From: an uncultured Propionibacterium sp.
GTDB lineage: Bacteria; Actinomycetota; Actinomycetes; Propionibacteriales; Propionibacteriaceae
Direction: 5' to 3'
Length of the DNA: 39,194 nt
NCBI GenBank assembly: GCA_937867175.1
Contig: CALMKG010000457.1
Coordinates: forward strand, 1-39,194
Positions 2,870 through 19,191 of the stretch are shown piece after piece (within the stretch, counting starts at the first letter, position 1; each line of letters begins with the position of its first letter). Under the pieces are notes generated by a model. The model was not told the DNA's origin and did no database searches. It saw only the letters and a list, made by a program, of their open reading frames with translations. The position numbers were made by a program, and so were the translations under genes.

Positions 2870-2897
2870 GTCTTTGGACCGTAGCCGGCGACGAGGG

Positions 2898-2915
2898 CTT
2901 CATCGGATCTTCATC
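2898..2915 (+). promoter_or_regulatory. candidate response-regulator box for the rightward copper operon
   Basis: The + strand reads CTTCATCggatCTTCATC, a perfect 7-bp direct repeat with an 11-bp period. It is the inverted counterpart of the box at 2852-2869. Its position 70 bases upstream of the first rightward gene fits autoregulation of the two-component system and activation of the exporter. No clear -10 hexamer is visible behind it. Confidence 0.55.
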
Positions 2916-2984
2916 CTTTCCGTGGGGGACCTTGATCGGGCCGCAGGACGATTGCGGGGAAAGAGACATGGACAGGTGGTTGCG

Positions 2985-3970: not shown

Positions 3971-5091
3971 CCCCCGGTCCTCATCAGGGCGACGTCCGTC
4001 GAGGCTCCGGCTTCGCGGGTCGGCTGCTGCTGGCCCAAGCGCTGGTCCTCGGCGCGGGCGCCGCGACGACGTGGGCGGTCGCCACCGCAGTTGGACCGGC
4101 CATCTTTCACACCCACCTGCGCCGCGCGCAGGTGCCCCACACCGACGCCGAGGCACGCCACGTCGAGCAGGCGTTCAACTCGGCGCTACTGCTGTCGATC
4201 TCGGTGGCGGTGGTGACCTCGGTCGCGGCTGCGCTGCTGGTGTCCTGGTACTTCACCCGCCGCGTCCGTGGCTCGATCGCCGCGGTCAGCCAGGGCGCAT
4301 CGGGGATCGCAGCGGGCCGGTACGACGCCCGCGTGCCCGACCCGGGTCTTGGGGCGGAGTTCACGACCCTCGCTGCCTCGTACAACCAGCTCGCCGAACG
4401 CCTCGGGGCCACCGAGACCACCCGCCGACGGCTGCTGTCCAACCTCGCCCACGAGCTGCGCACACCGTTGACGACGATCGACGCGCACGTGGAGGCCATC
4501 GAGGACGGTGTTCGCCAAGCCGATCACGACACCCTTGGGGTGATCCGCTCCAGCACCCGCAGGATCCGACGGCTGGCCGAGGACCTCAGCGCCCTCTCCC
4601 GGGCCGAAGAGGGCGGGCTCCCCCTCGACGTTCACGTCGTGACCGCCCGCTCGCTCGCCGAGGCGGGAATTGCCGCGGCCGCAGAGAGGTTCCGCGCCGC
4701 CGACGTCGAACTCACCCTTGCGGCCTCCACCGACGCCCGCGTGCAGGTAGACACCGAGCGCGTTGGCCAGGTCTTGGGCAACCTGCTCGACAATGCGCTG
4801 CGGCACACCCCGGCTGGCGGGCGCGTCACGGTGACGGTGGAGCGCGACGGTGCCGAGGTCACCATCGCCGTGGCTGACGACGGGGACGGCATCGCCGCCG
4901 AGCACCTCGACCATGTCTTCGAGCGCTTCTACCGCACTGACACCGCCCGTGACCGCGATCATGGCGGCTCAGGGATCGGGCTCAGCATCGCCCGCGCGCT
5001 GGTCGAGTCCCTCGACGGCAGCCTCACCGCTGCCAGCGACGGACCCGGCGCCGGCGCGATGTTCACCCTCCGCCTGCCCCTCGCGACCTGA
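3967..5091 (+). CDS. sensor histidine kinase, CopS-like
   Basis: A 374-residue membrane kinase starting at a GTG that overlaps the regulator's stop. It has two membrane segments (residues ~17-45 and ~72-98) around a very short, ~30-residue extracytoplasmic loop containing His residues ([20 protein letters not shown]). A HAMP linker follows, then a HisKA domain with phosphoacceptor His162 (NLAHELRTP), an N box ([12 protein letters not shown]), and G1/G2 boxes ([23 protein letters not shown]) of the ATPase domain. The short His-bearing sensor loop is consistent with direct sensing of periplasmic metal, inferred to be Cu(I). It phosphorylates the regulator encoded immediately upstream. Confidence 0.9.
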
Positions 5092-5107
5092 GACGAGGAG
5101 ACACCAG

Positions 5108-7558
5108 ATGGACCAGCACCGGGAACAGCACGGTCACGCCCACCACCCCGGCCACAGCCCGGCCGAAGGCCAGACGGTCGTGCTGGAGCTGGCCGGGGTC
5201 TCGTGGTCCAGCAGCAAGGCCACCGCGGAGGCGGTCCTGGCTCGGCGGGACGGCGTCCTCGCGGTGGAGGCGAACCCGGTCGCCCAGACGGCGACGCTCA
5301 CCTACGACCCATCCCGCACCAGCGTCGGCGAGCTCGCCGGCTGGGTCCGGGACTGTGGCTACCACTGCGCTGGCCAGTCCGTGCCACGGCACCTCTGCGA
5401 CCCGCTCGCCGAGCCGCAACACCACGGCCACGTGCAGCCGGGGCACGAGGCTGGTCAGCACGCGAGCCACGGGTCCGGTGAGGCAACCGAGATGGCCGAG
5501 CACACCGGCCACGACGCGGGTGCCCCGGCAATGTCGCCGCACGACGCGATGGGGCACGGCGGACACGGGTCGATGTCGATGGCCGACATGGTCGCCGACA
5601 TGCGCCGCCGGTTCCTGGTGGCCGCGGTGCTCTCGGTCCCGATCCTGCTGTACTCCCCGATCGGCCGCGACGTCATCGGCTACGACGCCGCGGCCCCGTT
5701 CGGGCTGCGCGACGACGCGTTCAGCCTGCTGCTGTCTTTGCCCGTGGTCTTCTACTCCGCCTGGATCTTCTTCGACGGCGGCTACCGCGCACTGCGGGCA
5801 CGGACCCTGGACATGATGGTGCTGGTCGCAGTCGCCGTGGGCGCCGGCTGGCTGTTCTCCCTCGGCGTCACCCTCACCGGCGGCGGCGAGGTCTTCTACG
5901 AGGCCGCCACCGTCCTCACCGCCTTCGTGCTGCTCGGGCACTGGTTCGAGATGCGGGCGCGCGGCGGAGCCAACGACGCCATCCGCACGCTGCTCGACCT
6001 CGCCCCACCCCAGGCCGTGGTGCTGCGGGACGGGAAACCGGTCGAGATCCCCACCGCCGAGGTCACCGTCGGGGACCTGCTGCTGGTCCGCCCCGGGACC
6101 AAGATCGCCACCGACGGCGTCGTCGAGGACGGCGAGTCCGAGGTCGACGAGTCCATGGTCACCGGCGAGAGCCTGCCGGTCCACAAGTCCCCCGGCGACC
6201 CCGTCATCGGTGCCACGGTGAACAGCTCCGGCACGCTGCGCATCCGTGCCAGCAAAGTCGGCGCCGACACCGCCCTGGCCCAGATCGTGTCGCTGGTCCA
6301 GCAGGCCCAGAACTCCAAGGCACCCGGGCAACGCCTGGCCGACAAGGCCGCCTTCTGGCTGGTGCTGGTCGCCCTCATCGGCGGCACCGTGACATTCTTG
6401 GCGTGGCTCGCCGCCGGCCTAGCTGTCAACGAGGCACTGCTCTTCGCGATCACGGTCGTGGTGATCACCTGCCCCGACGCCCTCGGACTGGCCACCCCGA
6501 CCGCGATCATGGTCGGCTCCGGCCTCGGCGCCCAACGCGGGATCCTGTTCAAGAACGCCACCGCACTGGAGACCTCCGCCCGCGTCGACACCGTCGTGAT
6601 GGACAAGACCGGCACCCTCACCAAGGGCGAGCCCGAGGTCACAGACCTGGAGGTCGACGGTATCGAACCCGACCGCCTCCTCGCCCTGGTCGCCGCCGTG
6701 GAACGCGAATCCGAGCACCCACTCGCGCGGGCCGTGGTCCAGCACGCCGAGGCTGTAGGCGCCGCCGCGCTTACCGCCACCGGGTTCCGTAACGTCGCCG
6801 GGCACGGCGCGCTCGCTGAGGTCGAGGGCACGGTCGTCGCCGTCGGCAACCGTCGCCTGCTCGAACGCGAGGGCATCGACCTCGGCCGGCTCGGCCCACG
6901 TCGCGACGCGATCGCCGCCGAGGGCAAGACCGCCGTGCTCGTAGCCGTCGACGGCCGCGCCGTCGCCGTGATCGGGATCGCGGATGCCGTCCGGCCCACC
7001 TCCGCCGCCGCCGTCCGCGCCCTGCACGACGCCGGAGTCACCGTGGTCATGCTCACCGGCGACAACCAGGCCACCGCCGACCGGATCGCCGCCGAGCTCG
7101 GCATCGACCAGGTCATCGCCGAGGTCCTCCCCGAGGACAAGGCCAGCAAGGTCAGCGAGCTCCAGTCCGCCGGGCATACCGTCGCGATGGTCGGCGATGG
7201 CGTCAACGACGCCCCCGCGCTAGCCGCCGCCGACCTCGGCATCGCCATCGGCACCGGGACCGACGTCGCCATCGAGACCGCAGACCTCGTCCTGATGCGT
7301 TCCGACCCCCTCGACGTCGCCACCGCCATCGCCATCGGACGCGGCACCCTTCGCAAGATGCGGCAGAACCTCGGCTGGGCCGTCGGCTACAACACCATCG
7401 CCCTCCCCATCGCGGCTGGCGTCTTCGAGCCCGCCTTCGGGCTGGTCCTGCGACCCGAGATCGCCGCCCTGTCCATGTCCGGGTCGAGCTTCCTCGTCGC
7501 CGTGAACGCCCTGCTGCTCAAACGACTCCAACTCCCTGACCCCGAGCCGTCGTCCTGA
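5108..7558 (+). CDS. P1B-type metal-translocating ATPase with unusual CPD motif
   Basis: An 816-residue pump starting at ATG 5108 behind GAGGAG. The N-terminus is His-rich. Residues ~20-95 have a heavy-metal-associated fold pattern, but the usual metal-binding M-x-C-x-x-C loop reads GVSWSSSKA and has no cysteines. A His/Met-rich linker follows (~110-165). The catalytic core is complete: TGES actuator loop, DKTGT with phosphorylated Asp499, [16 protein letters not shown] and [10 protein letters not shown]. The intramembrane ion motif is Cys455-Pro456-Asp457 ([14 protein letters not shown]) rather than CPC, CPH or SPC. The His-rich linker and copper operon favour a CopB-like Cu exporter, but the CPD site makes specificity uncertain. 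It follows the kinase gene by 16 bases. Confidence 0.9.
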
Positions 7559-7593
7559 CCACGGAGCGAACCCCACCCGTCAAGGAGATCCCC

Positions 7594-8490
7594 GTGCAGC
7601 CCGCCCCGACCGAGCCGACGACCGTCCCATCCCGTACGACGTCGCCGCGGGCCCGAAGACTCGTTAGGGCCTTCCCCGTGCTCGCCGCCACGGCGGTCCT
7701 CGCGGGATGCGGCGCCGCCGACACCGCGGAGCAGGGCCCTCCCGACGCCGAGCTGATGGGCCACATCCACGGCATCGGCGTCGATCCCGCCGACGACACG
7801 GTCTACGTGGGCGCCCACTACGGGGTCTTCCGCCTCGACGGGGACACCGCCACCCGGATCGCCGACCGCTGGCAGGACACCATGAGCTTCACGGTCGTCG
7901 GCGAGAACCACTTCCTCGCCAGCGGCCACCCCGCCCTCGACGAGGACCTCCCCACCCATCTCGGCCTGATCGAGTCCACCGACGCCGGCGAGACCTGGAC
8001 CCCTCGTGCGCTGCAGGGCGACGCGGACTTCCACGCCCTCGAACCAGCCGACGGCGTCCTCTACGGCTTCGACTCCCAAAGCGGGGAGATCTACGCCTCC
8101 GAGGACTGGACCACCTTCCGCAGAGTCGGACGCTTCAACGCCTTCGACCTCGCCGCCGACCCCACCGACCCGACGCGACTCATGGCCACCACCCCCGACG
8201 GCATCGCTCTCGTGGACACCTCGAACGCGACCTCGTCCACGCTCGACGCGCCAGCCCTGGCGTTTCTCGACTGGCCACGTGCCGACACCCTCGTCGGCCT
8301 GGCCCCCGATGGCCGCGTCTACCTGAGCCCCGACCAAGGCCGCTCCTGGACAACCGGCGGCCGAGTCCCGGGGGAACCGTCGGCCCTTGAGGTCTCCGAC
8401 GACGAATGGTTTGCCGCAACGAGCACCGGCCTTTACCGGTCCGCGGACGACGGCTCCACCTGGGACCTGATCCATGCGCTCGAGCACTGA
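7594..8490 (+). CDS. exported beta-propeller lipoprotein (BNR/sialidase-like repeats, F510_1955-type)
   Basis: A 298-residue protein with a basic N-terminal leader and lipobox (VLAGC), so probably a lipid-anchored surface protein. The mature part has repeated propeller blades: HIHGIGVDPADDTVYVGAHYGVFRL, ESTDAGETWTPR, YLSPDQGRSWTTGG and YRSADDGSTWDLIH, that is, several Asp-box (S-x-D-x-G-x-T-W) motifs. These occur in sialidases and in propellers of unknown function. I see no evidence for real sialidase activity. Start GTG 7594 has AAGGAG six bases upstream. It is the last gene of the copper operon, 35 bases after the ATPase. A role in copper binding at the cell surface is only contextual. Confidence 0.8.
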   Translation: MQPAPTEPTTVPSRTTSPRARRLVRAFPVLAATAVLAGCGAADTAEQGPPDAELMGHIHGIGVDPADDTVYVGAHYGVFRLDGDTATRIADRWQDTMSFTVVGENHFLASGHPALDEDLPTHLGLIESTDAGETWTPRALQGDADFHALEPADGVLYGFDSQSGEIYASEDWTTFRRVGRFNAFDLAADPTDPTRLMATTPDGIALVDTSNATSSTLDAPALAFLDWPRADTLVGLAPDGRVYLSPDQGRSWTTGGRVPGEPSALEVSDDEWFAATSTGLYRSADDGSTWDLIHALEH

Positions 8491-8507
8491 TTCGCCGAGG
8501 TGAATCC

Positions 8508-8627
8508 ATGGGTGAGGTCCACCGGGACGGCGCCTATGCCAGCAAGCATCCGGACGAGGTCAGGTGGTGCCAGTCGGCGCCGGAAACTTCGCTCCGGCTG
8601 ATCTCCGCAGCGCTCCCCTCGGGCGGA
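8508..8627 (+). pseudogene. remnant of a class I SAM-dependent methyltransferase (N-terminus only)
   Basis: From ATG 8508 about 40 codons read like the start of a small class I methyltransferase: EVHRDGAYASKHPDEVRWCQ then PETSLRLISAALPSGG. The family usually reads W-x-x-Y-x-x-x-x-x-x-x-x-V-S-W-(F/Y)-Q, then P-x-x-S-L-x-L-I. Immediately after, where the glycine-rich SAM-binding motif should come, the reading becomes unrelated low-complexity sequence. The aromatic residue before Gln is Cys here. The fragment is therefore a decayed leftover of a deletion or rearrangement between the copper operon and the ArsR unit. The identification is by pattern memory only. Confidence 0.5.
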
Positions 8628-8672
8628 CAACCAGCAGCCAGCCCCAGAACCGAACCGGTCCCGCTGAACGAG

Positions 8673-8703
8673 TTGACATTCTCACCGCGACTGGCGCTAA
8701 CAT
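8673..8703 (+). promoter_or_regulatory. promoter of the CmtR-like ArsR operon, probably leaderless
   Basis: A perfect -35 TTGACA lies at 8673-8678, and TAACAT at 8698-8703 fits the -10 T-A-n-n-n-T pattern with a 19-base spacer (GCTAAC at 17 bases is an alternative). The -10 ends six bases before the ATG at 8710, so transcription would start at or next to the start codon and there is no Shine-Dalgarno sequence. A leaderless message is likely. Confidence 0.55.
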
Positions 8704-8718
8704 CGCTATATGGCGATG
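8701..8718. promoter_or_regulatory. ArsR-family operator palindrome overlapping -10 and start codon
   Basis: CATCGCTATATGGCGATG is an 18-bp palindrome with one mismatched pair (arms CATCGC/GCGATG, centre ATAT). It covers the end of the -10 element and the ATG of the ArsR gene. Autorepressors of the ArsR/SmtB family bind imperfect palindromes exactly here, so it is the natural operator of the downstream gene. Confidence 0.55.
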
Positions 8719-9087
8719 ACAGCAAAGGCGGTGTCCACAGGCATCGACGGCCTCGACGAAGCGGCGGCCGGGCGGGCAGCAGCCTGCCTGTTCCGCGGGA
8801 TGAGCGACCCGTCTCGGGTAGCGATCCTGCGCCACCTGCTGCGCGGTGAGCACAACGTGGCCGAACTGACCGCTCACCTGGGGCTGGCCCAGTCGACGGT
8901 CTCCAAGCACTTGGCCTGCTTGCGCGACTGTGGGCTCGTGGACTCCCGTCCCGCCGGTCGCGCGTCGGTGTTCTCGCTGACCCACCCCGACGCGGTGCTG
9001 AAGGTGTTCGCCGCCGCCGAAGAGCTGCTCGCCGCCACCGGCGACGCCGTGGTGCTGTGCCCCAACTACGGCGAGCGAACCGCCTGA
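8710..9087 (+). CDS. ArsR/SmtB-family metal sensor, CmtR-like (Cd/Pb)
   Basis: A 125-residue winged-helix repressor (MSDPSRVAILRHLL, then recognition helix LAQSTVSKHLACLRDCGLV). The metal site resembles mycobacterial CmtR: a Cys-x3-Cys pair in the recognition helix (Cys70, Cys74) plus a distal C-terminal Cys117. CmtR uses Cys57, Cys61 and Cys102 for Cd(II)/Pb(II), with the same spacing in the first pair. A fourth Cys26 is present near the N-terminus. The gene probably is leaderless and lies on its own operator. One base separates its stop from the next gene, so it likely controls the two CDF exporters downstream and derepresses them on soft-metal binding. Confidence 0.87.
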   Translation: MAMTAKAVSTGIDGLDEAAAGRAAACLFRGMSDPSRVAILRHLLRGEHNVAELTAHLGLAQSTVSKHLACLRDCGLVDSRPAGRASVFSLTHPDAVLKVFAAAEELLAATGDAVVLCPNYGERTA

Positions 9088-9088
9088 C

Positions 9089-9838
9089 ATGACCATCCAT
9101 ACCGACGGCCATGCCCACGCCGCCACCTACGTCGAGGACCCGGCCCGACGCCGGCAGCTCGGCCGCCGTGCCCAACTGCTCGCCGCCGCCTCGGTCTCCT
9201 ACAACGTGATCGAGGCCGTCATCGCGATCACGGCCGGTTTGATCGCCGGGTCGATCGCGCTCGTCGGGTTCGGGCTGGACTCCATCGTCGAGGTCAGCAG
9301 CGGACTGATCATCTTGTGGCAGTTCCGCAACCCACTGCCCGAGTCCCGCGAACGGCAAGCGCTGCGGCTGATGGCGTTGTCCTTCTTCGCGCTGGCCGCC
9401 TACGTCACCTTCGAATCGATTCGCGCGCTGTCCACCGGACACGATCCAGATCCCTCGCCGGTGGGTATCGGGCTGGCGATCGCGTCGCTGCTGATCATGC
9501 CGTTCCTGTCCTGGGCCCAGCGCCGCACCGGCAGAAGCCTCGGCTCCAACGCGGTGGTTGCCGACTCCGCCCAGACCTTGCTGTGTACCTACCTCTCCGC
9601 CGTCCTGCTGGTCGGTCTGGTACTTGACGCGACCCTGGGCTGGTCCTGGGCCGACCCGATCGCCGGTCTGGTCATCGCCGCCGTCGCCGTCCGCGAAGGA
9701 CTTGAGGCCTGGCGCGGCGACGGCTGCGCCTGCGGCCCATCCTTGGTCGATGACCCTCGCGCGGACACCCCCACGGACGAAACCTGCGCGGATGGCTGCT
9801 GCGGCGATGCTGTAGCCGGACGCCGGGAAGGTGCCTGA
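9089..9838 (+). CDS. CDF-family cation efflux protein, short form without cytoplasmic domain
   Basis: A 249-residue protein with six predicted membrane segments. TM2 carries GLDSIVEVSSG and TM5 VVADSAQTLLCTYLS, the acidic metal-site positions of a compact CDF subgroup. It ends soon after TM6 and lacks the usual cytoplasmic dimerisation domain. Instead the tail is rich in cysteines (CACGPS, then CADGCC), with His residues at the N-terminus (HTDGHAHA). That fits a carrier for soft or thiophilic metal and matches the Cys-type sensor encoded just upstream. It is co-transcribed with that sensor (one-base gap) and is followed three bases later by a second CDF gene. Confidence 0.85.
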   Translation: MTIHTDGHAHAATYVEDPARRRQLGRRAQLLAAASVSYNVIEAVIAITAGLIAGSIALVGFGLDSIVEVSSGLIILWQFRNPLPESRERQALRLMALSFFALAAYVTFESIRALSTGHDPDPSPVGIGLAIASLLIMPFLSWAQRRTGRSLGSNAVVADSAQTLLCTYLSAVLLVGLVLDATLGWSWADPIAGLVIAAVAVREGLEAWRGDGCACGPSLVDDPRADTPTDETCADGCCGDAVAGRREGA

Positions 9839-9841
9839 CTG

Positions 9842-10759
9842 ATGGGTGCCGGACACGGACATGGGCATGCAACCCCGTCGGCACACGCAGGCGGACGCCA
9901 CCGCTGGCGGCTGGCGGTCACCTTCGCGATGGTCGCCGTCTTCCTGGTTGTCGAGCTGGTCGCCGGGCTGCTGTCCGGCTCGCTCGCACTGATCTCCGAC
10001 GCCGGCCACATGACAGCTGATGTCGTCGCCCTCGGGGCCGCCCTGGTGGCCACCAAGATCGCGACCCGCCCCGACACCACGGGCCGGCGCTCCTACGGGT
10101 CCTACCGGGCCGAGGTGTTCGCCTCTGGGCTCACCGTTCTGATCATGCTCGGCGTGGCCGTCTATGTCGTGGTCGAAGCGATCGGCCGCATCGGTGAGGA
10201 GCCGCAGGTCCAGACCGGGGCGATGCTGGTCGTCGGCAGCATCGGCCTGGGCGTCAACATAGCCTCGATGATGCTCCTGCGTCAGGGCTCCACCGAGTCG
10301 CTCAACGTCAAGGGCGCCTACTTCGAGGTCGTGGCCGACGCCGCCGGAAGCGTCGGCGTGATCGTTGCGGGCCTGCTGGTCGCCTGGACCGAGCAGTCGT
10401 GGTGGGACACCCTCGTCGCGGTTGCCATCGGTGTGTTCGTCGCCGTACGTGCTGTCGTGCTCGGCCGGCAGGTCCTCTCCGTCCTTGGACAGCACGTGCC
10501 CCACGACATCGAAATTGAGCGGGTCACCGCCGACCTCGAAGGCGTCCCCGGAGTCGGCGGAGTCCATGACCTCCACGTCTGGACCCTGACTTCGGGCATG
10601 AACGTCGCCACCGCCCACCTCGTCGTTGACGACGGGGCGGACGCCCAGACGGTACTGACCAGCGCCCAGTCGGTACTGGCGGTTCAACACCGGATCGAGC
10701 ACGCGACCCTGCAGGTCGAAGCCACCCCAACAAAGCAGTGCCACGAGGTCACATGGTGA
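9842..10759 (+). CDS. CDF-family cation efflux protein, CzcD/ZitB type
   Basis: A 305-residue carrier. It has a short His-rich N-terminus (GHGHGH), six membrane segments and a full C-terminal dimerisation domain (HDIEIERVTADLEGVPGVGGVHDLHVWTLTSG) typical of zinc/cadmium antiporters. TM2 has the zinc-type His-x3-Asp pair (SDAGHMTADVVAL). At the matching TM5 position the sequence is FEVVADAAGSVGV, with Glu in place of the usual His; this may alter metal selectivity. It is the last gene of the ArsR-controlled unit and exports divalent metal in exchange for protons. The family assignment is firm; the exact metal is not known. Confidence 0.9.
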   Translation: MGAGHGHGHATPSAHAGGRHRWRLAVTFAMVAVFLVVELVAGLLSGSLALISDAGHMTADVVALGAALVATKIATRPDTTGRRSYGSYRAEVFASGLTVLIMLGVAVYVVVEAIGRIGEEPQVQTGAMLVVGSIGLGVNIASMMLLRQGSTESLNVKGAYFEVVADAAGSVGVIVAGLLVAWTEQSWWDTLVAVAIGVFVAVRAVVLGRQVLSVLGQHVPHDIEIERVTADLEGVPGVGGVHDLHVWTLTSGMNVATAHLVVDDGADAQTVLTSAQSVLAVQHRIEHATLQVEATPTKQCHEVTW

Positions 10760-10780
10760 GCAGGCCACTCCGCTGAAGGC

Positions 10781-10800
10781 CGACCCGAGCCGACCCGAGC
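10781..10800. repeat. tandem duplication of a 10-bp unit
   Basis: CGACCCGAGC occurs twice in direct tandem just after the CDF gene. It is a small local duplication in the 338-base non-coding stretch 10760-11097. Apart from this and the CAGGTT array (10832-10950), I see only a possible nine-codon leader (11069-11098) in that stretch. Confidence 0.6.
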
Positions 10801-10831
10801 AAGCACTGCCCGTGGCCGTCACCCGCGGATC

Positions 10832-10950
10832 CAGGTTCCCCGAACCTGACCTCCCACGTACGCTCTGAGCGTCGTCGGCACTCAGGTCCGCATGAAACCG
10901 TCGATTTTCATGCGAGCTTCTAACCTGCTGTCTCTAGGCACTCAGGTTCG
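10832..10950. repeat. left CAGGTT array, candidate recombination end of mobile cassette
   Basis: Five CAGGTT-type motifs occur in alternating orientation: a palindrome CAGGTTCCCCGAACCTG (10832-10848), CTCAGGTCCG (10881-10890), TAACCTG (10921-10927) and CTCAGGTTCG (10941-10950). Segment 10832-10927 aligns to 17214-17310 at about 79% identity by hand count, in the same orientation and with one single-base gap. The shared blocks include CCACGTACGCTC and TTCATGCGA. It lies 148 bases upstream of the recombinase gene. It is probably a binding array for the recombinase and its accessory protein, or an attachment-site arm. Confidence 0.7.
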
Positions 10951-11097
10951 GTCCGCGGCATTTGCGGCCTCGAATCGCGTTTGTGCAGGTGACGTCAGTT
11001 CCCCACCCTCTTGGGCGTCGAGTGATGAACCTTCACCCTGAATGACGGTTTCGCTGTAGCATCGACGCATGGTCGGCTCCTCTGAAGTCGGTGACTG

Positions 11098-12183
11098 ATG
11101 GGTCTGGTGGCGCTGCCGGGTGGCGGCGCCGGGGATCTGGTGTTGTCGAGTGCGCAGGCGGCCGAGGACTTCGAGCAGGAGGTCGTCGACCAGTACGCGC
11201 TGGCGATGTCGGCGGCGGGCCTGAGTGACGGGCACATCCGGCAGACCCGGGCGGTGGTGATCGAGTTCGCCCGGTCGTTGACGAAGCCGGTGTGGGAGGC
11301 GACCTGTGCGGACGCGGACGAGTTCATGGCCGAGCAGCGCCGGCTGGGGCACACCGTGGCGACGAGGGCAGGCAAGGCCGGGACGTTGTCGCTGTTCTAC
11401 GAGTTCGTGATCGCCCGTTACGAGGGCACGATCCGCCGTGCGACCGGCGTGCTCGTCGAGCAGCCGATCGATGAGTTCAACCGCCAGTCCGGGGCATCGC
11501 TGGCGAAGGTTCGCGTCCCGCCCTCGGATCAGGAGATCGACTCGTTGTTCACCGCCTGGCGTGGCTCGATCCCACAGGCCCGCAAGTACCTGCCCGCGGC
11601 CCGGGACTACTTCGCGGCATCGCTGTGGCGTCGGCTCGGGTTGCGGATCAACGAGACCGTCATGCTCGACATCCGCGACTGGCGTCCCGATCTGGGCGAG
11701 TTCGGCAAGCTTCATGTCCGCTTCGGCAAGGGCAGCCGCGGCCGCGGGCACAAGCCACGGCTGGTGCCCGCGATCAACGGCGCCGACCTGCTGATCGACT
11801 GGTGGCTGGCCGAGGTCCGCCACCAGTACGGCACGGACTGGGACCAGCCGGACGCGCCGATGCTTCCCTCCGAGCGGTTCGACCGCGACCTGGGTCGGTG
11901 CGGCCGCGTGGGCACCAACGCGTTGCGGCGTGGCCTGGCTATCCACGTCGACCAGTGGCTGCCGGCCTGGTCGGACCGGATGACGCCGCATGTCCTTCGG
12001 CACTACTGCGCCTCGTCGCTCTACGCGGTCGGCATGGACATCAAGGCGATCCAGGAGCTGCTGGGCCACCAGTGGCTGGCCACCACCTCGGGCTACATCC
12101 ACGTACGCAGCGAGCACATCGTCCACGCATGGAACAGCGCCAACCTTCGTGTCGAAGCCCGCCTGGGACTCCAGACCGACTGA
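11098..12183 (+). CDS. tyrosine recombinase/integrase
   Basis: A 361-residue recombinase. The N-terminal SAM-like core-binding domain (about 25-125) is followed by a catalytic domain with the full active-site set: Arg183 (GLRINETVMLDI), a Lys loop (GKGSRGRGHKPR), His298-x-x-Arg301 (TPHVLRHYCASS), His324 (LGHQWLATTSGY) and nucleophile Tyr333. It should therefore be catalytically competent for strand exchange. There is no strong ribosome-binding site at ATG 11098; its ATG overlaps the stop of a nine-codon reading frame at 11069. It is the first gene of a three-gene module and lies just inside the left CAGGTT array. A Tn554 TnpA-like role is inferred from size and company. Confidence 0.9.
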   Translation: MGLVALPGGGAGDLVLSSAQAAEDFEQEVVDQYALAMSAAGLSDGHIRQTRAVVIEFARSLTKPVWEATCADADEFMAEQRRLGHTVATRAGKAGTLSLFYEFVIARYEGTIRRATGVLVEQPIDEFNRQSGASLAKVRVPPSDQEIDSLFTAWRGSIPQARKYLPAARDYFAASLWRRLGLRINETVMLDIRDWRPDLGEFGKLHVRFGKGSRGRGHKPRLVPAINGADLLIDWWLAEVRHQYGTDWDQPDAPMLPSERFDRDLGRCGRVGTNALRRGLAIHVDQWLPAWSDRMTPHVLRHYCASSLYAVGMDIKAIQELLGHQWLATTSGYIHVRSEHIVHAWNSANLRVEARLGLQTD

Positions 12184-12211
12184 ATCCCGACGACCCAAGG
12201 AGAGGATCAAG

Positions 12212-12568
12212 ATGCAGTGGAGCCTGCGGCTTCGGGCCGCCGAGCGAGGGATCTGGAAGTCGGCGCAGCTGCGCCGGATGCTGGCCGACGCGGGCCTTGA
12301 GATCAGCGCCGGGAAGATGTCGTCGTGGTGGGCGGGCACCCCGCCCACGATGCGGCTGGAGGAGCTCGACGTGCTGTGCGCGGTGCTCGACTGCACGCCC
12401 AACGACCTGATGACCCCCGAGCCCGACAAGGTCGCCGCCCGCCGCGTGCGCGACGCCGACACAGTCAACGGGGGCAACGGGAACGGCGATGACAAGCCGA
12501 ACGGTGGCGGGAACAGCCCGGCGGTGAGCCCGCGGTTCAGTAAGCCGCGCTCGACCCCGCCGCTGTAG
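12212..12568 (+). CDS. small helix-turn-helix protein of the recombination module
   Basis: A 118-residue product starting at ATG 12212 behind AAGGAG. Residues ~1-70 look like an XRE/Cro-type helix-turn-helix: LRAAERGIWKSAQLRRMLADAG, then ISAGKMSSWWAGTPPTMRLEELDVLCAVLDCTPNDLM. The rest is a disordered Gly/Asn/Pro-rich tail. It lies 28 bases after the recombinase and 50 bases before the large zinc-ribbon protein, on the same strand. Possible roles are directionality factor, accessory DNA-binding protein for the flanking arrays, or repressor of the module. It occupies the place of a TnpC-like small partner, with no proven homology. Confidence 0.75.
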   Translation: MQWSLRLRAAERGIWKSAQLRRMLADAGLEISAGKMSSWWAGTPPTMRLEELDVLCAVLDCTPNDLMTPEPDKVAARRVRDADTVNGGNGNGDDKPNGGGNSPAVSPRFSKPRSTPPL

Positions 12569-12618
12569 ACGCTCTCTGCGATACCGACGACGTTGACCAC
12601 AGATGAGACGAGGACTGC

Positions 12619-14457
12619 GTGCCGGCGCCGGGACCTGACGCGTCGTTGCGGCTGCCGCCGCGGTGCAACAGGTGCCAGGCCAACCCGGTCGCGTGGACCA
12701 GTCCGCGGGTCGACTTCTGCTACCAGTGCCTGCCCGGTGGCCCGTTTCCCGCTCCGCCGTGCCGGTGGTGCGGGACGGCGAAGAGCTACTTCAGCCAGGG
12801 GCTGTGCATCTTGTGCCATCCCCGTAGCCCGCAACGGCCCGGGGCCTGCAAGGGCTGCATGGCCTGGGGTGTCTACCCGCGCTACAACTGGACCTGCTGG
12901 CCGTGCCGCTGGTGGCGCACCCACTACCCCGAAGGGGTGTGCGACTTCTGCGGACGGCTGGCGCGGATCGGGAACTCCGGGGCTTGTCGATTGTGTGTCG
13001 AGCAGGCCCAGATCACCCAAGAACCCGGGCGGGCCCTCGACTACGCCGGCGCCAACCGGCACAGCCAGCAGCTCTTCTTGGCCAACATGCTGTTCAAGAA
13101 GCGCATCACCCCACGCCTGGCACCCGAGCCCAGCCTGCGACCTGGACCGCGTGGTCGACAGGCGAGCACGGCGAGCGTTCGAACCGGCACCGAGCCGTGG
13201 AAGAGCCGCTACAAGAACCAGTTGCCCTATCCCGCCGGGACCGGCTTCGACGACGAGGCATCGGTGCAGCTGGCCCTGTTCGACATGGCCCCCGACTACG
13301 AAGCCGTCCGCCGACGTGTCCTGATCGCGGACAGCGAACTGACTCGCTTCTGCGCCGCGATCGTCGACGAGCACGCCGAGCGCTACGGGTGGTCGGTACG
13401 GCAACGCAACGACGTGACCCGCTCGCTGCGGCTGCTGCAGACGCTGCGCGAAACCCCGACCGCGAAGATCCGCGCCAGCGACGTCATGCAGCTGCCGCGC
13501 TACGACGGCAACATCATCTCCACCATCGACGTCCTCGCCGAAGCCGAGCTGCTCATCGAGGACCGCCCCAGCCGGGTTGAGGTCTACTTCGCCGCCAGGA
13601 CTGCCAGCCTTCCGCCGCTGATGCGCGAGCACCTCGAGCTGTGGCTGCAGGTCATGCTCGACGGCTCCCGACTCGCACCCCGGCAGGTGCCCCGCGATCC
13701 CCAGACCGTCCGGGTCCAGATCATGGGCCTGGTCACCGTGGTCGACGCGTGGGTCGAGGCCGGTTATGAGTCCTTCGCCCAGGTCACCCGCATTGACATC
13801 GAAAGTGCCTTGGCGCCGCTGGCCCCGGGACGGCGTCACGCTGCCGAGCTTGCGTTGAGGTCGCTGTTCAAGACCCTCAAGGGCCGGCGCCTGATCTTCG
13901 CCAACCCCATGCGCGGGATGAAGCACACGCCGGTCGCGGGCACCATCCCGCTCGCGCTGGACCCCGCCGTGATCCGTGCCGAGCTCAACCATCCCGACCC
14001 GGTGGTCGCACTCGCCGTCGCGCTCGTCGCGTTCCACGCTCTGACCGGAAAGCAGTTGCGAGCAGTCCTGCTGACCGACATCGTCGATGGCCGGCTCACG
14101 ATCGGCGATCGTGAGATTCCGTTGGCTGCGCCCGTCCGGACCCGACTCGCGGCCTGGCTCGACCATCGCAACCGTCGCTGGCCGGGCTGCATCAACCCCC
14201 ACCTGCTGGTCAGCAGGCGCACCGCACCACGCCTGGTGCCCGTGGGCCACAGCTTCCCCTGGAAGGGCATCACCCTTCGTCCGCAGGCGCTGCGTGAAGA
14301 CCGCATCCTGCACGAGATCCATGCCACCGGCGGCGACGTCCGCCGCATCTGCGACTTGTTCGGCCTCGGCGTCGAAGGCGCCACCCGCTACCTGAAGACC
14401 CTGGAGCACCCCGACCTCGCCAACGGGGGCGAGCGGGCATCCAGTCCAGGTTCGTGA
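12619..14457 (+). CDS. zinc-ribbon protein with degenerate tyrosine-recombinase fold
   Basis: A 612-residue protein starting at GTG. Residues ~15-140 hold four successive Cys-x2-Cys pair sets (CNRC/CYQC, CRWC/CILC, CKGC/CWPC, CDFC/CRLC), that is, a tandem zinc-ribbon array. The C-terminal half (~340-600) follows the tyrosine-recombinase plan: a helical core-binding region, HALTGKQLRAVLLTDIVDG where box I should be, QALREDRILHEI at box II, and DLFGLGVEGATRYLKTLEHP with Tyr591. The box I Arg appears replaced and the box II His is Gln, while the box II Arg and the Tyr remain. It is probably a non-catalytic or half-site partner of the active recombinase, analogous to Tn554 TnpB. The fold assignment is by pattern, not a search. 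Confidence 0.75.
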   Translation: MPAPGPDASLRLPPRCNRCQANPVAWTSPRVDFCYQCLPGGPFPAPPCRWCGTAKSYFSQGLCILCHPRSPQRPGACKGCMAWGVYPRYNWTCWPCRWWRTHYPEGVCDFCGRLARIGNSGACRLCVEQAQITQEPGRALDYAGANRHSQQLFLANMLFKKRITPRLAPEPSLRPGPRGRQASTASVRTGTEPWKSRYKNQLPYPAGTGFDDEASVQLALFDMAPDYEAVRRRVLIADSELTRFCAAIVDEHAERYGWSVRQRNDVTRSLRLLQTLRETPTAKIRASDVMQLPRYDGNIISTIDVLAEAELLIEDRPSRVEVYFAARTASLPPLMREHLELWLQVMLDGSRLAPRQVPRDPQTVRVQIMGLVTVVDAWVEAGYESFAQVTRIDIESALAPLAPGRRHAAELALRSLFKTLKGRRLIFANPMRGMKHTPVAGTIPLALDPAVIRAELNHPDPVVALAVALVAFHALTGKQLRAVLLTDIVDGRLTIGDREIPLAAPVRTRLAAWLDHRNRRWPGCINPHLLVSRRTAPRLVPVGHSFPWKGITLRPQALREDRILHEIHATGGDVRRICDLFGLGVEGATRYLKTLEHPDLANGGERASSPGS

Positions 14458-14493
14458 CCCAAGAAGTGGGCACCGGACCAAGTGTGTGATCAT

Positions 14494-14871
14494 ATGCGCA
14501 TGCGTGCACGTGTGGGTGAGGAGTTGCTGCCGGGCGACGAGCAGGTGGATCTGGCGGTCGAGGTGTTCCGGATGCTCGCCGACCCCACGCGGGTACGGAT
14601 CCTGTGGGTGCTGCTCGATACCGAGCGAGCGGTGAACGCGATTGTCGAGATCCTCGGCAAGCCGCAGAGCGCGGTCTCCCAGCACCTGGCCAAGCTGCGC
14701 CTTGCCCGCTTGGTGCTGCCGCGCAAGGAGGGCAGCCAGGTCTTCTACCGTGTCGCCAACGACCACGTACGCCAACTGGTGGCCGACGCGGTGCATCACG
14801 CGGAACATGCCGGCCCCGGTGTCCCGGCCCACCACCGCGGCGCCGCCGTCGATCTCAAGGAAGCCCGATGA
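14494..14871 (+). CDS. ArsR/SmtB-family metal sensor, NmtR/SmtB-like alpha-5 site
   Basis: A 125-residue winged-helix repressor (MLADPTRVRILWVLL, recognition helix KPQSAVSQHLAKLRL). The C-terminal helix reads NDHVRQLVADAVHHAEH. His91, His102 and His105 have the spacing of the His ligands in the alpha-5 site of NmtR and SmtB (H-x10-H-x2-H), with Asn/Asp89-90 near the usual Asp, and two further His at 113-114. This fits a Ni/Co or Zn sensor, unlike the Cys-type sensor at 8710. Starts at GTG 14482, ATG 14494 and ATG 14500 are possible; none has a clear ribosome-binding site. A short palindrome ATGCGCAT overlaps the start. The stop overlaps the next ATG, so it controls the adjacent exporter. Confidence 0.85.
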   Translation: MRMRARVGEELLPGDEQVDLAVEVFRMLADPTRVRILWVLLDTERAVNAIVEILGKPQSAVSQHLAKLRLARLVLPRKEGSQVFYRVANDHVRQLVADAVHHAEHAGPGVPAHHRGAAVDLKEAR

Positions 14872-15992
14872 GCCGCGAGCCCCAGCCCGGCGACCACGAG
14901 ATGGACCCCGAACTCGCCGAAGCGTTGGCGGCGCACGAGGCCGCCCACACCGGCGGCACCCACGGCCACGGGCACGGGCATGGCCACGGTCATGAGCACC
15001 GCGGTGGGGTCCGAGGTTTCCTCGCCGAGACGTTCCGAGCGCACAGTCATGACAGCGCCGACTCGGTCGACTCCGCCCTGGAGTCCAGCGCGCTGGGAAT
15101 CCGAGCGGTGAAGATCAGTCTGCTGGCGCTTGGTGTTACCGCCATCGCGCAGGCGGTCATCGTGGTGCTGACCGGATCGGTAGCGCTCCTGGCCGACACG
15201 ATCCACAACTTTTCCGACGCGCTGACGGCGATCCCGTTGTGGATCGCCTTCGTCCTCGGCCGCCGGCGACCGACCAAGGCGTACACCTATGGCTACGGTC
15301 GCGCGGAAGACCTGGCCGGGATCTTCATCGTCGCGATGATCGCCCTGTCCGCGGTGGTCGCTGGCTATGAGTCGGTACGCAAACTCATCGATCCCCAGCC
15401 CATCTCGTATCCGTGGGTCGTGGTCGTCGCCGGGCTGATCGGCTTCGCTGGCAACGAGCTCGTCGCGCTTTACCGGATCCGGGTCGGTCGGCAGATCGGC
15501 TCCGCGGCACTGGTTGCCGACGGGCTGCACGCCCGCACCGATGGGTTCACCTCGCTGGCCGTCGTGCTCGGCGCCTTCGGAGTGCTGCTCGGTTTCCCGC
15601 TGGCCGACCCGATCGTCGGGCTGCTGATCACCGTCGCGATCCTGCTCGTGTTGCGCGACGCTGCCCGCGACGTCTACCGGCGGCTCATGGACGCCGTCGA
15701 CCCCGAACTCACCACCACCGCCGAGGCCACCCTCCGCGACACCGACGGCGTCCGCGACATCGAGCAGGTACGGCTGCGCTGGATCGGGCACCGCCTGCGC
15801 GCCGAGGCCGGGATCGTCGTGGACAGCGGCCTGGATATCGTCGCAGCGCACGCGATCGCCACCGATGCCCACCACCGGCTGCTCCACGCGATCCCCAAGC
15901 TCGTCGGCGCCACCGTGCACGTCAGTCCCAGCGACGAGAACGGCGACCCGCACCAGGTGCTGGCCCACCACCACGTCTCGCCCCGCGACTGA
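14868..15992 (+). CDS. CDF-family cation exporter with His-rich N-terminus
   Basis: A 374-residue carrier translationally coupled to the ArsR gene (ATGA overlap). The N-terminus contains an alternating His-Gly run (HGHGHGHGHGHEH), which could bind metal in the cytoplasm. Six membrane segments follow. Both metal-site pairs are intact His-x3-Asp: DTIHNFSDALTAIP in TM2 and LHARTDGFTSLAVV in TM5. The C-terminal domain (about 265-360) has the dimerisation pattern and a His-rich tail (VLAHHHVSPRD). Exports divalent metal by proton antiport. With the His-type sensor and a HupE permease in the same operon, Ni/Co or Zn is the likely substrate. Confidence 0.9.
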   Translation: MSREPQPGDHEMDPELAEALAAHEAAHTGGTHGHGHGHGHGHEHRGGVRGFLAETFRAHSHDSADSVDSALESSALGIRAVKISLLALGVTAIAQAVIVVLTGSVALLADTIHNFSDALTAIPLWIAFVLGRRRPTKAYTYGYGRAEDLAGIFIVAMIALSAVVAGYESVRKLIDPQPISYPWVVVVAGLIGFAGNELVALYRIRVGRQIGSAALVADGLHARTDGFTSLAVVLGAFGVLLGFPLADPIVGLLITVAILLVLRDAARDVYRRLMDAVDPELTTTAEATLRDTDGVRDIEQVRLRWIGHRLRAEAGIVVDSGLDIVAAHAIATDAHHRLLHAIPKLVGATVHVSPSDENGDPHQVLAHHHVSPRD

Positions 15993-16037
15993 CCCCACCA
16001 CGAGCCCGCCACGGCCAGACACGAGCCAGGAACATCC

Positions 16038-17129
16038 ATGCTGAACACCGACCACGACCGACGACCCACGTTGCGCCGGCGCATGCTGCTCGGGGCGACC
16101 GCGGCAGTCGCCCTGTCGCTGCTCACCGCCGCTCCGGCGGCCGCGCACGGCATCAGCGGGGACGCCACCGAACGCTCCACCCTGGGATTCATCTCCGTCG
16201 GGATCGAGCACATGATGCTCGGCTGGGACCACCTGCTCTTCATCGCCGGCGTCCTGCTGCTGGCCCGCCAGATGCGCAGGGCGGCCAAGCTGATCAGCAT
16301 CTTCGCCCTCGGCCACAGCCTCACCCTGATCTGCGCCACCCTCGCCGGCTGGCATGTCAACGCCGACCTCGTCGACGTCGTCATCGTGCTCAGCGTCGCG
16401 TTCGTCGGCGGCGTCGGGCTCTTCGGACAACCCAAACGGTGGGACCTCCTCGGCGCCGCCATCTTCGGGTTCGGCCTCATCCACGGCCTGGGACTGGCCA
16501 CCCGCCTGCAAACGCTGGGACTGCCCGATGACGGGCTCATCTGGAAGGTCATCTGCTTCAACATCGGCGTCGAGATCGGCCAGGTCACCGCCATCGTCGG
16601 CATGCTCGGCCTCGCCGCAATCGTGGCCATGGCGATCGGCCAAGCCCGCGAACAGACCGCAATCAAGGCCGGCGCGGTCGTCCTGTTCAACCTCGGCGCC
16701 ATCGCCGCACCCGTGATGGCCTTCAACGCGTTCACCGCCCAGCCCGGCAGCCCCACCGGCTTCGAGCTCGCCGCCGACAGCAGCTGCGAACTCGGCCCGC
16801 GCACCGTCGACATGCCCGCCACCGGCGAACACACCGACAAGCGGTTCTACGAACCCACCGAGGACGCCCCACTCGCCGACTTCGGCCACTCCCTCGGCGA
16901 CGGCTTCGTGGTCATCCTCTACCCCAGCGACCTCGCCGATCCCGACATCGACGCTCTGAGGGACTTCGTCGGCAACCACCCCACCAAGGGCGTGCTCGCC
17001 GGTCCCGCCGACGGCGACGGACTGCGCGTGCTCACCACACGAGAGACCCTGTCCTGCACGCGAATGGAGCTCCCCACCATCGACGGCTTCAGCCGGCTCT
17101 GGTTCAAGTCCCTGGGCTACGACACCTGA
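16038..17129 (+). CDS. HupE/UreJ-type metal permease fused to a DUF3105-like domain
   Basis: A 363-residue protein with an N-terminal leader ending near AAPAAAHG, then a HupE/UreJ membrane domain (~40-235). Family motifs are present: GIEHMMLGWDHLLFIAGV, FALGHSLTL and GLIHGLGLA. This family includes nickel/cobalt permeases. After the last membrane segment comes a soluble domain (~250-363: EHTDKRFYEPTEDAPLADFG, then GHSLGDGFVVILYP and TRETLSCTRM). It resembles DUF3105 proteins, normally separate exported proteins. The fusion is unusual. It follows the CDF gene by 45 bases with AGGA upstream of the ATG, and is the last cargo gene of the cassette. Confidence 0.82.
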   Translation: MLNTDHDRRPTLRRRMLLGATAAVALSLLTAAPAAAHGISGDATERSTLGFISVGIEHMMLGWDHLLFIAGVLLLARQMRRAAKLISIFALGHSLTLICATLAGWHVNADLVDVVIVLSVAFVGGVGLFGQPKRWDLLGAAIFGFGLIHGLGLATRLQTLGLPDDGLIWKVICFNIGVEIGQVTAIVGMLGLAAIVAMAIGQAREQTAIKAGAVVLFNLGAIAAPVMAFNAFTAQPGSPTGFELAADSSCELGPRTVDMPATGEHTDKRFYEPTEDAPLADFGHSLGDGFVVILYPSDLADPDIDALRDFVGNHPTKGVLAGPADGDGLRVLTTRETLSCTRMELPTIDGFSRLWFKSLGYDT

Positions 17130-17213
17130 CGTGGTCACCGAAGTGCGCTGCAACCCGCCCCTCGGCATCCCGATCAAGTCCTGGGCGCGGCTGAGGCGCG
17201 GCGACTCCTGAAT

Positions 17214-17318
17214 CAGGTTCCGCGAACCTGAGCATCCACGTACGCTCGGAGCACCATGCATGCTCAGGTTCGCCTCGAAACGGTCAATCTTCATGCGAAC
17301 TTCTAACCTGCCAGGTTC
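17214..17318. repeat. right CAGGTT array, candidate recombination end of mobile cassette
   Basis: Five motifs occur in the same order and orientation as in the left array: palindrome CAGGTTCCGCGAACCTG (17214-17230), CTCAGGTTCG (17263-17272), TAACCTG (17304-17310) and CAGGTTC (17312-17318). About 79% identity over 96-97 positions to 10832-10927. A 14-base stretch present between the last two motifs of the left array is absent here. The array overlaps the end of the VirB4-like gene: its TAACCTG supplies that gene's TAG stop on the opposite strand. This is what an insertion at that gene's 3' end would leave. Confidence 0.7.
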
Positions 17319-18793
17319 ATCCGGCCCGTTGTGTCGAAGAGCTCCAGCTCGGCAGGGTGGAGCTGATGCTGGACAACGAACGACCTGTGCTTGATCCGCC
17401 ACAGGCCCTGTCCGGTGCCGAGTGTCGGGAGGAGCGACTGTTCGGTGCGAGTTAGCCCGAGCGCGGCGGCCGTTGTACCGAGCTGGTCGGACTCTTGCCG
17501 GTAGACCACCCGGGTCTCGGCGTTGGCCAACAACGATGAGGCGAGCGCCCGCATGGCGGAGCCCTGGTCGCCGACGTTGTCGAGGTCGGAGAGCTTGTGG
17601 AAGATCAGCATGTTCGCGATCCCGTAGTGCCGGGCCAGCCGCCAGTGCGCGTCCATGCGCCGCAGGAGCGCGGGATGGGACATCAGCCGCCACGCCTCGT
17701 CGTACACGACCCACCGTTGACCGCCGTCGGGGTCGAGGAGGGCCGATTCCATCCATGCTGACGCGCAGGTCATCAACACCGAGATGAGGGTCGCGTTCTC
17801 GGTCACCCGCGACAGGTCGAGGGAGATCATCGGCAGCGTGGGGTCGAATCGGACCGTGCTGGGGCCGTCGAAGAGCCCGGCGAGGTCGCCGGCGACGAGG
17901 CGGCGCAACGCGTGACCAACCAGGCGGCCGTCCTCGGCCAGTCGACCGTCGGTGTCCGTCCTCTGTTCGGGTGTGAGCAATCGTTCGACCACCATCGGAA
18001 GTACCGGTACGTCGGTCGAGCGGACCGCGTCCGCGAGCGCGACGTCGATGGCCGTGTGCTCCAACGGGGTGAGCCGGCGGTCGAGGACCGTCTCGGCCAG
18101 GGCACCGAGGAGGTCGCGGCGCCGCGAGGTGACCTGAGCCGCCCACTGGATGTCATCGAGCCCGGCAGGCCGGTGGCCCTCGTCGAGCGGGTTGAGGCGG
18201 TTTGGCATCCCGTGCCCGAGTGCGATGGCTCTGCCGCCGACGGCTACGGCGACAGCGGTGTGTTCACCCTTGGGGTCGCCAGGAACGTAGACACGGCGGC
18301 CGAAGGGGATCGAGCGGGTGTAGAGGCTCTTGGCCAGGGCCGACTTGCCGGCCCCGACGATCCCCGCGAGCACGAGGTTGGGCGCGGTGATCAGGCCGCG
18401 CGCATAGAGAACCCATGGGTCGTAGACAAACGAGCTGCCTGAGTAGAGGTCCTGCCCGACGAAGACTCCGTCACTGCCGAGGCCGCCCTCAGCGAGGAAC
18501 GGGTACGCGCCGGCCAGGGTGGCGGACGTGTCCTGGTGACGAGGCAACCGAAGGCGGCCGGGCGTACGCAGGGCGGCGGCACCATGCTCGCCAGCCTTCG
18601 GCAACACGACGGTCGCGCGGCGCTCGGCCGCCAGCTCGTCGGACTTCGCCTTCGCGAGTGTTCTGCGCGCGTCGCGGTCCTCGGCGAGCCGGGACTTCGC
18701 TGCCGCCTTGCGTGCGCGTCGGTCACGTCGACGCTCACGACGAGGCGACACGAGCACCGCACTGTGCAGACGGCTCTCGTCGAAGTCCTTCAC
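17303..18793 (-). CDS. VirB4-like conjugation ATPase
   Basis: A 496-residue ATPase without membrane segments. It has a charged, Arg/Lys-rich N-terminal part (~15-60), a Walker A loop (LAGIVGAGKSALAKSLY, about residue 140), PGDPKGEHTAVA, and a Walker B (RWVVYDEAWRLM), then YGIANMLIFHKLSDL and VVYRQESDQL. This is the VirB4/TraC-type motor pattern of actinobacterial type IV secretion. The GTG at 18793 overlaps the stop of the upstream gene and gives the expected start; longer versions would run through that gene. Its last codons and stop lie inside the right CAGGTT array, so the C-terminus may have been altered by the cassette. It is the last gene of a long leftward transfer operon. Confidence 0.88.
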   Translation of the reverse strand: MKDFDESRLHSAVLVSPRRERRRDRRARKAAAKSRLAEDRDARRTLAKAKSDELAAERRATVVLPKAGEHGAAALRTPGRLRLPRHQDTSATLAGAYPFLAEGGLGSDGVFVGQDLYSGSSFVYDPWVLYARGLITAPNLVLAGIVGAGKSALAKSLYTRSIPFGRRVYVPGDPKGEHTAVAVAVGGRAIALGHGMPNRLNPLDEGHRPAGLDDIQWAAQVTSRRRDLLGALAETVLDRRLTPLEHTAIDVALADAVRSTDVPVLPMVVERLLTPEQRTDTDGRLAEDGRLVGHALRRLVAGDLAGLFDGPSTVRFDPTLPMISLDLSRVTENATLISVLMTCASAWMESALLDPDGGQRWVVYDEAWRLMSHPALLRRMDAHWRLARHYGIANMLIFHKLSDLDNVGDQGSAMRALASSLLANAETRVVYRQESDQLGTTAAALGLTRTEQSLLPTLGTGQGLWRIKHRSFVVQHQLHPAELELFDTTGRMNLAG

Positions 18794-19191
18794 AGCGACA
18801 GCCCGCGGTCGACCGGGGAGCCAGACACCTGTGGCTCTGGGAACTCGCGGTGGTAGGTGAGCATCGCCTCCGCCTCGTGTGCGTTCCCGATGACGACGCC
18901 GACCTGACCGAGCATCTCGCCAGCTCGATGGAGATCCCACGAGACTCGGTAGGCGGCCGAGCGAGCCTTCGGCGAGTCAGTCGGCGCCCACGGCGCATTG
19001 CGCTGACGTCCGTCGTGGTACTGCGCGATCTGATGGAGCGACTGGCTCAGCGACGCGACGGCCGAGGTGAGCGAGCCAAGGACCGAGTAGATCTGGCGCG
19101 GGTCGTCGATCGAGCGGGTTGCGTGCGCAAGGGCCCGCAGTGCGGTCTGTACTTCGTCGGCGTCGGCCGCCGGGTTCTCGAACGTTGGCAT
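18790..19191 (-). CDS. unrecognised helical protein of the transfer operon
   Basis: A 133-residue protein starting at ATG 19191 with AAGGAG six bases upstream. It is predicted helical throughout (ADEVQTALRALAHATRSIDDPRQIYSVLGSLTSAVASLSQSLHQIAQ), with no leader, membrane segment or cysteine cluster. It has a short His/Glu stretch near the end (NAHEAEAMLTYHREF). Its stop overlaps the GTG of the VirB4-like gene, and it begins 52 bases after the SCO6880-family gene, so it is part of the same operon. Small cytoplasmic helical proteins at this place are common in actinobacterial conjugative elements, but I cannot name a function. Confidence 0.72.
   Translation of the reverse strand: MPTFENPAADADEVQTALRALAHATRSIDDPRQIYSVLGSLTSAVASLSQSLHQIAQYHDGRQRNAPWAPTDSPKARSAAYRVSWDLHRAGEMLGQVGVVIGNAHEAEAMLTYHREFPEPQVSGSPVDRGLSL

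Follow-up and report, generated by a model that had tools for sequence, protein, structure and literature searches.

The stretch of DNA analysed here (the window) comprises 39,194 nucleotides of a contig from an uncultured Propionibacterium sp., and its positions 10929–17311 very probably represent one copy of a family of site-specific transposons of actinobacteria. The interior of this element consists of six genes on the plus strand. The first three form a recombination module: tnpA (11098–12183), which encodes a 361-amino-acid tyrosine recombinase with retained catalytic motifs; a gene for a 118-amino-acid Cro/C1-type helix-turn-helix (HTH) protein (12212–12568, HTH_26); and tnpB (12619–14457), whose 612-amino-acid product combines a cysteine-rich, zinc-ribbon-like N-terminal part with a tyrosine recombinase fold. 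They are followed by a cargo of three genes, which encode an ArsR-family metalloregulator (14482–14871), a CDF cation-efflux transporter (14868–15992) and a HupE/UreJ-family membrane protein (16038–17129). This gene content is as described in a reading made from the sequence alone (hereafter, the sequence-only reading). The left end (LE, 10929–11097, plus strand) starts with TGTCTCTAGGCACTCAGGTTCG and reaches the tnpA start. The right end (RE2, 17214–17311, plus strand) carries three half-sites and closes with CTTCTA (17300–17305) and the hexamer ACCTGC (17306–17311), which is presumably carried along by the element. The target gene, virB4, follows on the minus strand (17303–18940) with its stop codon (17303–17305) inside RE2, and LE is preceded by a second copy of the right end (RE1, 10832–10928, plus strand), which likewise ends CTTCTA-ACCTGC.

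Pfam and NCBIfam profile searches of the window's proteins match TnpA to PF00589 (E 3e-15). Its residues R183, H298, R301, H324 and Y333 are invariant in all 12 aligned sequences, and by these motifs TnpA is an intact catalytic recombinase. TnpB has no Pfam or NCBIfam match. It displays 16 cysteines that are invariant among 47 aligned sequences, and residues 329–606 of its AlphaFold2 model (mean pLDDT 76.5, pTM 0.43) match XerH (Z 15.6), the Tn1549 integrase (Z 13.3) and the lambda integrase (Z 13.2), matches that cover the C-terminal domain only. R559, R562 and Y591 of TnpB are invariant in 47/47 sequences; the box I arginine and two histidine positions are not kept. We read TnpB as a putative DNA-binding partner in which catalysis has largely been lost, a reading to which the retained tyrosine leaves some room.

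Termini, empty sites and further copies

Matches to the large protein TnpB were found in 92 plasmid records and at least 80 genome loci; relatives were also present in 14 of 293 genomes from the order and 3 of 396 from the phylum (the window's own genome is counted in both). The trio was read at ten plasmid loci drawn from these records and at the genome loci. Counts given below per module locus refer to 90 loci, namely the window, L007–L014, L016, L019 and L025–L104 minus L078 (a duplicate of L019), with two further copies from the window's own genome (L002, L017) and a shorter duplicate (L015) left out.

Near-identical elements that stand in unrelated flanks define the termini to the base. 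On the left, the agreement starts at LE and runs inward, with none outside, in L067/L068 (99.9% identical), L085/L086, L050/L100, L011/L055, L035/L036, L019/L077 and others. On the right, L026/L027, as well as L009, L039 and L074 compared with L040, agree through RE plus six nucleotides, where contigs L027 and L040 end. Pairs L067/L068, L085/L086 and L050/L100 inform the left end only, their raw alignments stopping elsewhere on the right (in or beyond virB4; for L067/L068 the stop is unexplained). In most loci where it was found, the left terminus reads [TAC][AG]TCTC[CT]A and lies about 168–173 nt before the tnpA start codon; this pattern gave no match, or one in the wrong place, in a number of loci, and a single RE consensus missed distant clades. 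In the window, sequence comparison places the exact limits at 10929 for LE and at 17311 for RE.

Nearly identical left flanks with a DUF4145 gene are found in different genera (L019 1–3780, L034 4547–8326, L079 and L085), where they adjoin different elements of the family; this shared flank was considered as a further target and rejected, as it is a nearly identical stretch with that gene. Locus L025, with a trio whose TnpB is 94% identical to the window's, belongs to a metagenome-assembled genome labelled Anaerolineales and is probably a binning error.

Empty sites, which the sequence-only reading had proposed to seek, do exist, one of them in the same assembly. On contig C130, a virB4 gene 91% identical to that of the window reads on to GVAPAAHLSPGETGAIR and overlaps by ATGA an ArdC-like gene, which directly follows it with no insert. 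The window's homologue of this ArdC-like gene (20–736, minus strand; an ORF named from its annotated homologue, by position and by eye) is the left neighbour of the whole insert and lies 16.5 kb from virB4; the homology with C130 breaks off at 777 and is taken up again near 17315. This empty site is that of a close homologue, not of an identical allele. Furthermore, in G002 and G005, two genomes of the same genus, the next gene directly follows virB4, the operons of plasmids L020–L024 are uninterrupted, and contig C483 of the window's own genome has no RE at its virB4 end.

Both junctions of the element are met a second time in the assembly. The end of contig C198 carries 55 nt identical to 10928–10982 behind another gene of type IV secretion system (T4SS) type, and the end of contig C586 carries 55 nt identical to 17258–17312 before a virB4 gene that is only 31% identical to the window's. 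These contig ends are most simply read as marking a second copy of the element, situated in a different transfer operon, that the assembler has collapsed. Contigs C308 and C376, with a 68% identical TnpB, a gene for an FnIII/beta-helix protein as cargo (by eye) and an RE of their own at an 80% identical virB4, look like a third element. Two more observations concern the same genome: a more distant trio on C261 (L017 2539–5820; tnpA 59% and tnpB 37% identical), and, on C428 (L018 9435–9569), a 43-codon remnant of the tnpB C terminus that overlaps a 25-nt LE-like match on the other strand, either a deletion relic or chance.

Considering (i) the base-exact ends, (ii) the empty sites and (iii) the relatives, we hold with high confidence that 10929–17311 is a mobile element. 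The proposal of a site-specific element with metal genes, present in many actinobacteria, thus finds support. The narrower suggestion of a family specific to metal resistance does not stand, as several members are cargo-free and the same-genome copy carries the FnIII/beta-helix protein gene.

The CAGGTT clusters and the preceding insertion

The hexamer CAGGTT occurs 22 times in the window compared to 8.55 expected, and 0 of 100 shuffles reach this count. Four exact copies lie in 10832–10948 and five in 17214–17317. These had been described as two homologous five-site arrays of about 79% identity that bracket the element. The clusters are real and 10832–10928 is homologous to 17214–17311 (81% identity, E 4.4e-18, with ungapped blocks of 74% over 69 nt and 89% over 35 nt), but the left set consists of four exact motifs and one CAGGTC in place of CAGGTT, and only four of the five motif positions correspond. 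The homology of RE1 and RE2 stops at the hexamer ACCTGC, after which the left stretch continues TGTCTCTAGG and the right one CAGGTTCATCC, the latter being codons of the minus-strand virB4. Because the sequence beyond ACCTGC differs, the fifth motifs of the two sets are not homologous; the left one (10943) lies within the element's own left end and the right one (17312) within virB4 codons.

Aligned right ends contain three versions of one half-site, GAACCTGAG, CTCAGGTTC and the terminal GAACTTCTA, and the complete palindrome CAGGTTC-N3-GAACCTG is retained in only part of them. Array-like sequence is located 3′ of tnpB, adjoining the target gene, and is not seen upstream of tnpA in most loci. 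In most other insertions, an array occurs at the right end alone. By this comparison it is a feature of right ends, and the window's left array is the right end (RE1) of a preceding insertion, followed by LE. The two arrays, then, do not bracket the element. Similarly, copies with other cargo or none, which the sequence-only reading had proposed to look for, do exist, but arrays do not flank both sides in most cases. Arrays without recombinase genes, an arrangement it had counted against a transposon, occur as well: RE1 is one, and in G003, a genome of the same genus, virB4 and the gene after it are separated by a solo RE-like sequence, with no tnp genes in the stretch read. We interpret both as remnants of accretion or of loss.

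The body of the earlier insertion (element 1 minus its right end, 778–10831) extends from the C130 homology edge at 777 to RE1 and carries metal cargo with no recombinase genes: a heavy-metal P-type ATPase gene, an ArsR gene (8710–9087) and two CDF genes (9089–9838 and 9842–10759). As the window holds no second tnpA or tnpB, a complete element 1 is not shown. For its left end there is a doubtful resemblance, by eye, near 788–834, which does not establish it, and a search for an intact relative of its cargo returned only partial metal-gene matches.

To find right ends ahead of LE elsewhere, a weight matrix built from 26 right ends was used to scan 65 left flanks at a threshold set to the 99.9% background level; some LE positions were set by hand from pairwise comparisons, and loci without a clear LE were omitted. 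An RE-like 25-mer was found 5–7 nt before LE in 8/65 flanks, compared to about 0.2 expected. The top three (L032, L029 and the window, whose RE1 scores 31.7) reach 31.7–34.8 with a gap of exactly 6, where the 99.99% background level is 0.08. Because these 25-mers exceed background in 8/65 flanks, insertion behind an older right end has, on this evidence, occurred in several lineages. A degenerate RE-like sequence exactly 6 nt before LE in L128 (contig C198 of the window's genome; score 15.9) and in L010 (9.0) suggests that these operons also had older, decayed insertions.

The RE-like sequence before LE could be imagined as a part of the natural target, with no tandem accretion at all, and the solo RE-like sequence behind virB4 in G003 fits such an account. 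However, RE-like sequence is missing from 57 of the 65 left flanks at the threshold used and from the uninterrupted operons read, and in the window RE1, 97 nt long and with the same three half-sites, is preceded by a 10-kb cargo block. We regard this account as improbable and favour accretion.

Insertion at the 3′ end of virB4

The main feature of the locus, overlooked by the sequence-only reading, is that the element sits at the virB4 3′ end. RE begins, both in the window and in pTC1, at the last virB4 codons and provides the stop codon; the window's virB4, re-terminated by RE, keeps nearly its full length. A search at E 1e-8 detected a VirB4 homologue beyond tnpB in 57/90 module loci, always convergent and 39 bp to 11.3 kb away, and returned no match elsewhere in the 90 loci, including upstream. 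The left neighbour is a minus-strand T4SS or tad gene in 63 of the 86 loci that have tnpA, some several kb off. With both sides taken together, a T4SS or tad neighbour is present in 75/90 loci (L098, from the tad set, included); in 11 of the other 15, a contig end limits the view on one side or both. In a distant clade (L016, L092, L096, L099), a T2SF gene of a tad operon adjoins the element on the right with its 3′ end. On these comparisons, we have high confidence in insertion at the virB4 3′ end with supply of a stop codon and with tandem accretion.

Two side observations bear on the target genes. The window contains tad-type genes at 32865–36012 (two T2SF matches and one T2SE match to L016 proteins), the kind of operon entered by the distant clade, and no trio stands next to them there. 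L052 14887–19850 displays, in this order, an RE, a 144-nt virB4 fragment (codons 495–542), about 4.7 kb, a second RE and a full virB4, a possible capture of the target gene's end.

The association of the trio with virB4 could also mean that it is an immobile, fixed backbone module of actinobacterial plasmids that serves dimer resolution or conjugation control. TnpA scores as XerC/XerD-like, and many copies without cargo are found at that same position in plasmids of Arthrobacter, both of which would suit such a role. Yet the ends are base-exact with unrelated flanks, there are empty sites in this genome and elsewhere in its genus, the same ends are found at two virB4 targets with just 31% identity, the distant clade targets tad, and copies 99.9% identical are found in different genera; we consider a fixed module very improbable.

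Beyond the window, we lean towards a wider proposal, that of hitchhiker transposons, a class specialised in entering secretion and pilus machine genes at their 3′ ends (virB4, and the tad T2SF gene in the distant clade). Its members would possess a single complete recombinase and a zinc-ribbon pseudo-recombinase for target choice, would re-terminate the gene they enter and would stack in tandem, and resistance islands would thereby build up within the transfer operon of the conjugative elements themselves.

Several points weigh against the reading of 10929–17311 as a site-specific transposon seated at virB4. Movement of the element is deduced from sequence comparison, none having been observed, and the second copy is deduced from contig ends of a fragmented assembly (607 contigs, with contamination estimated at 7.8). 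C130 departs from an exact pre-insertion sequence by about 15 nt, which lie between its homology edges and are absent from the window. VirB4 is lacking in 33/90 loci; four loci (L057, L083, L097, L102) are free of T4SS and tad genes although their sequence extends for at least 8.6 kb to the left and 10 kb to the right; and the 90 loci include near-duplicates and are not independent. As for accretion, the 57/65 left flanks with no RE before LE at the threshold used count on this side as well.

Proposed mechanism and comparison with known systems

We propose the following model, in which the hexamer route and the division of labour among the proteins are held with moderate to low confidence. TnpA would be the strand-exchange enzyme, cutting at LE and RE, and target selection at the end of virB4 would fall to TnpB and the HTH protein, which would bind the GAACCTG-type half-sites repeated in the ends. 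The element would move via a circle, and a 6-nt hexamer that flanked the donor site on its left would be carried along to end up on the right of the new one, a rule described for SEs and Tn554 in the available part of PMC10214605. Being non-conjugative but residing in a conjugation operon, the element would travel with its carrier. The RE–virB4 junction could act again as a target, so that blocks of cargo stack. The hexamer ACCTGC to the right of the C586 junction is the one found to the left of the window copy, and C198 has GGCCTC on the left; the match fits the rule on the assumption that the donor was the window copy or a similar one, and hints at the hexamer route from one pair. Against it, this pair is the only one that tests the rule; in several single insertions the left and right hexamers are not the same, which the rule permits.

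If the reading as a transposon is right, it would explain the repeated entry and stacking of metal and other cargo in actinobacterial transfer regions with virB4 left nearly intact. The defined ends and target, the near-identical empty site and the pairs of related elements make mobility, target choice and the role of the pseudo-recombinase testable.

The suggested likeness to Tn554 holds in outline; gene order differs, as had been remarked, gene content differs as well, and membership fails. That the element is a Tn554 family member with altered gene order is the least probable of the alternatives, for although protein sizes are reportedly similar, one ordinary and one large recombinase-fold protein are present, no target duplication is seen, the hexamer in one pair of copies fits the behaviour described for Tn554 and the profile of TnpA has a match (E 1e-11) in the catalytic part of a large recombinase of Tn554-like type, the gene order differs, the third protein is an HTH_26 protein with no BLAST match to the DUF6262 protein (TnpC) of the reference, and the TnpB profile reaches only E 0.28 against that large recombinase, which keeps catalytic residues (by eye) that TnpB lacks. 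The sole reference here was a Mycolicibacterium plasmid whose small recombinase is cut short by an insertion sequence; by this comparison its trio is a different lineage for the large protein, the catalytic part of which resembles TnpA. In the available part of PMC3414803, Tn554 and Tn554-like elements of actinobacteria are likewise site-specific and non-conjugative with one ordinary and one large protein; Tn554 has two catalytically complete recombinases and TnpC, which the element described here does not, and Nocardioides JS614 pNOCA01 and Arthrobacter FB24 plasmid 1 are listed among Tn554-like pairs without TnpC. The same source describes RIT elements as three adjacent tyrosine recombinase genes, an identity that we rejected, as the second gene here encodes an HTH protein and the third a protein without most catalytic residues.

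SEs, as far as PMC10214605 is available, share with our element a partner protein (Tfp) with a recombinase fold minus the catalytic motif, a 6-nt hexamer that is carried along (presumably so in our element) and a target preference. In contrast to the three genes and single complete recombinase found here, they have the order intA-tfp-intB-srap with two complete recombinases (IntA and IntB) and Srap, and are reported there from Gammaproteobacteria only; membership was rejected on gene content. Integrative and mobilizable elements in oriT or traG of integrative and conjugative elements are also non-conjugative and enter the transfer region of a conjugative element, but, according to the portion of PMC5704250 at hand, they use other recombinases and targets, and their traG insertions interrupt the gene, whereas virB4 here is nearly full-length and re-terminated.

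The closest precedent in gene order is the 'XER modules' described in 2018 in three Antarctic Arthrobacter plasmids, between umuC and umuD (PMC6305408, available in part). They consist of a recombinase, an XRE-type regulator, a third recombinase-like gene and variable cargo, an order that the window and its relatives share, but are inserted in umuDC, whereas the window family targets virB4 or tad. The pA40H2 module is by sequence a distant relative of the window's trio (TnpA 27% and HTH protein 30% identical; a third protein of 828 amino acids with a weak partial profile match). The available account of XER modules describes no ends, virB4 target or accretion, and in the open-licence literature, judged by title and the start of the abstract, we found no report of a virB4-targeting transposon, of such ends, of stop-codon supply or of accretion. 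Thus, the gene order was already known, and the isolated remark of 2018 can now be placed among a broad set of relatives, which includes trios, whole or partly annotated, on plasmids of Streptomyces, Mycobacterium, Mycolicibacterium and Rhodococcus.

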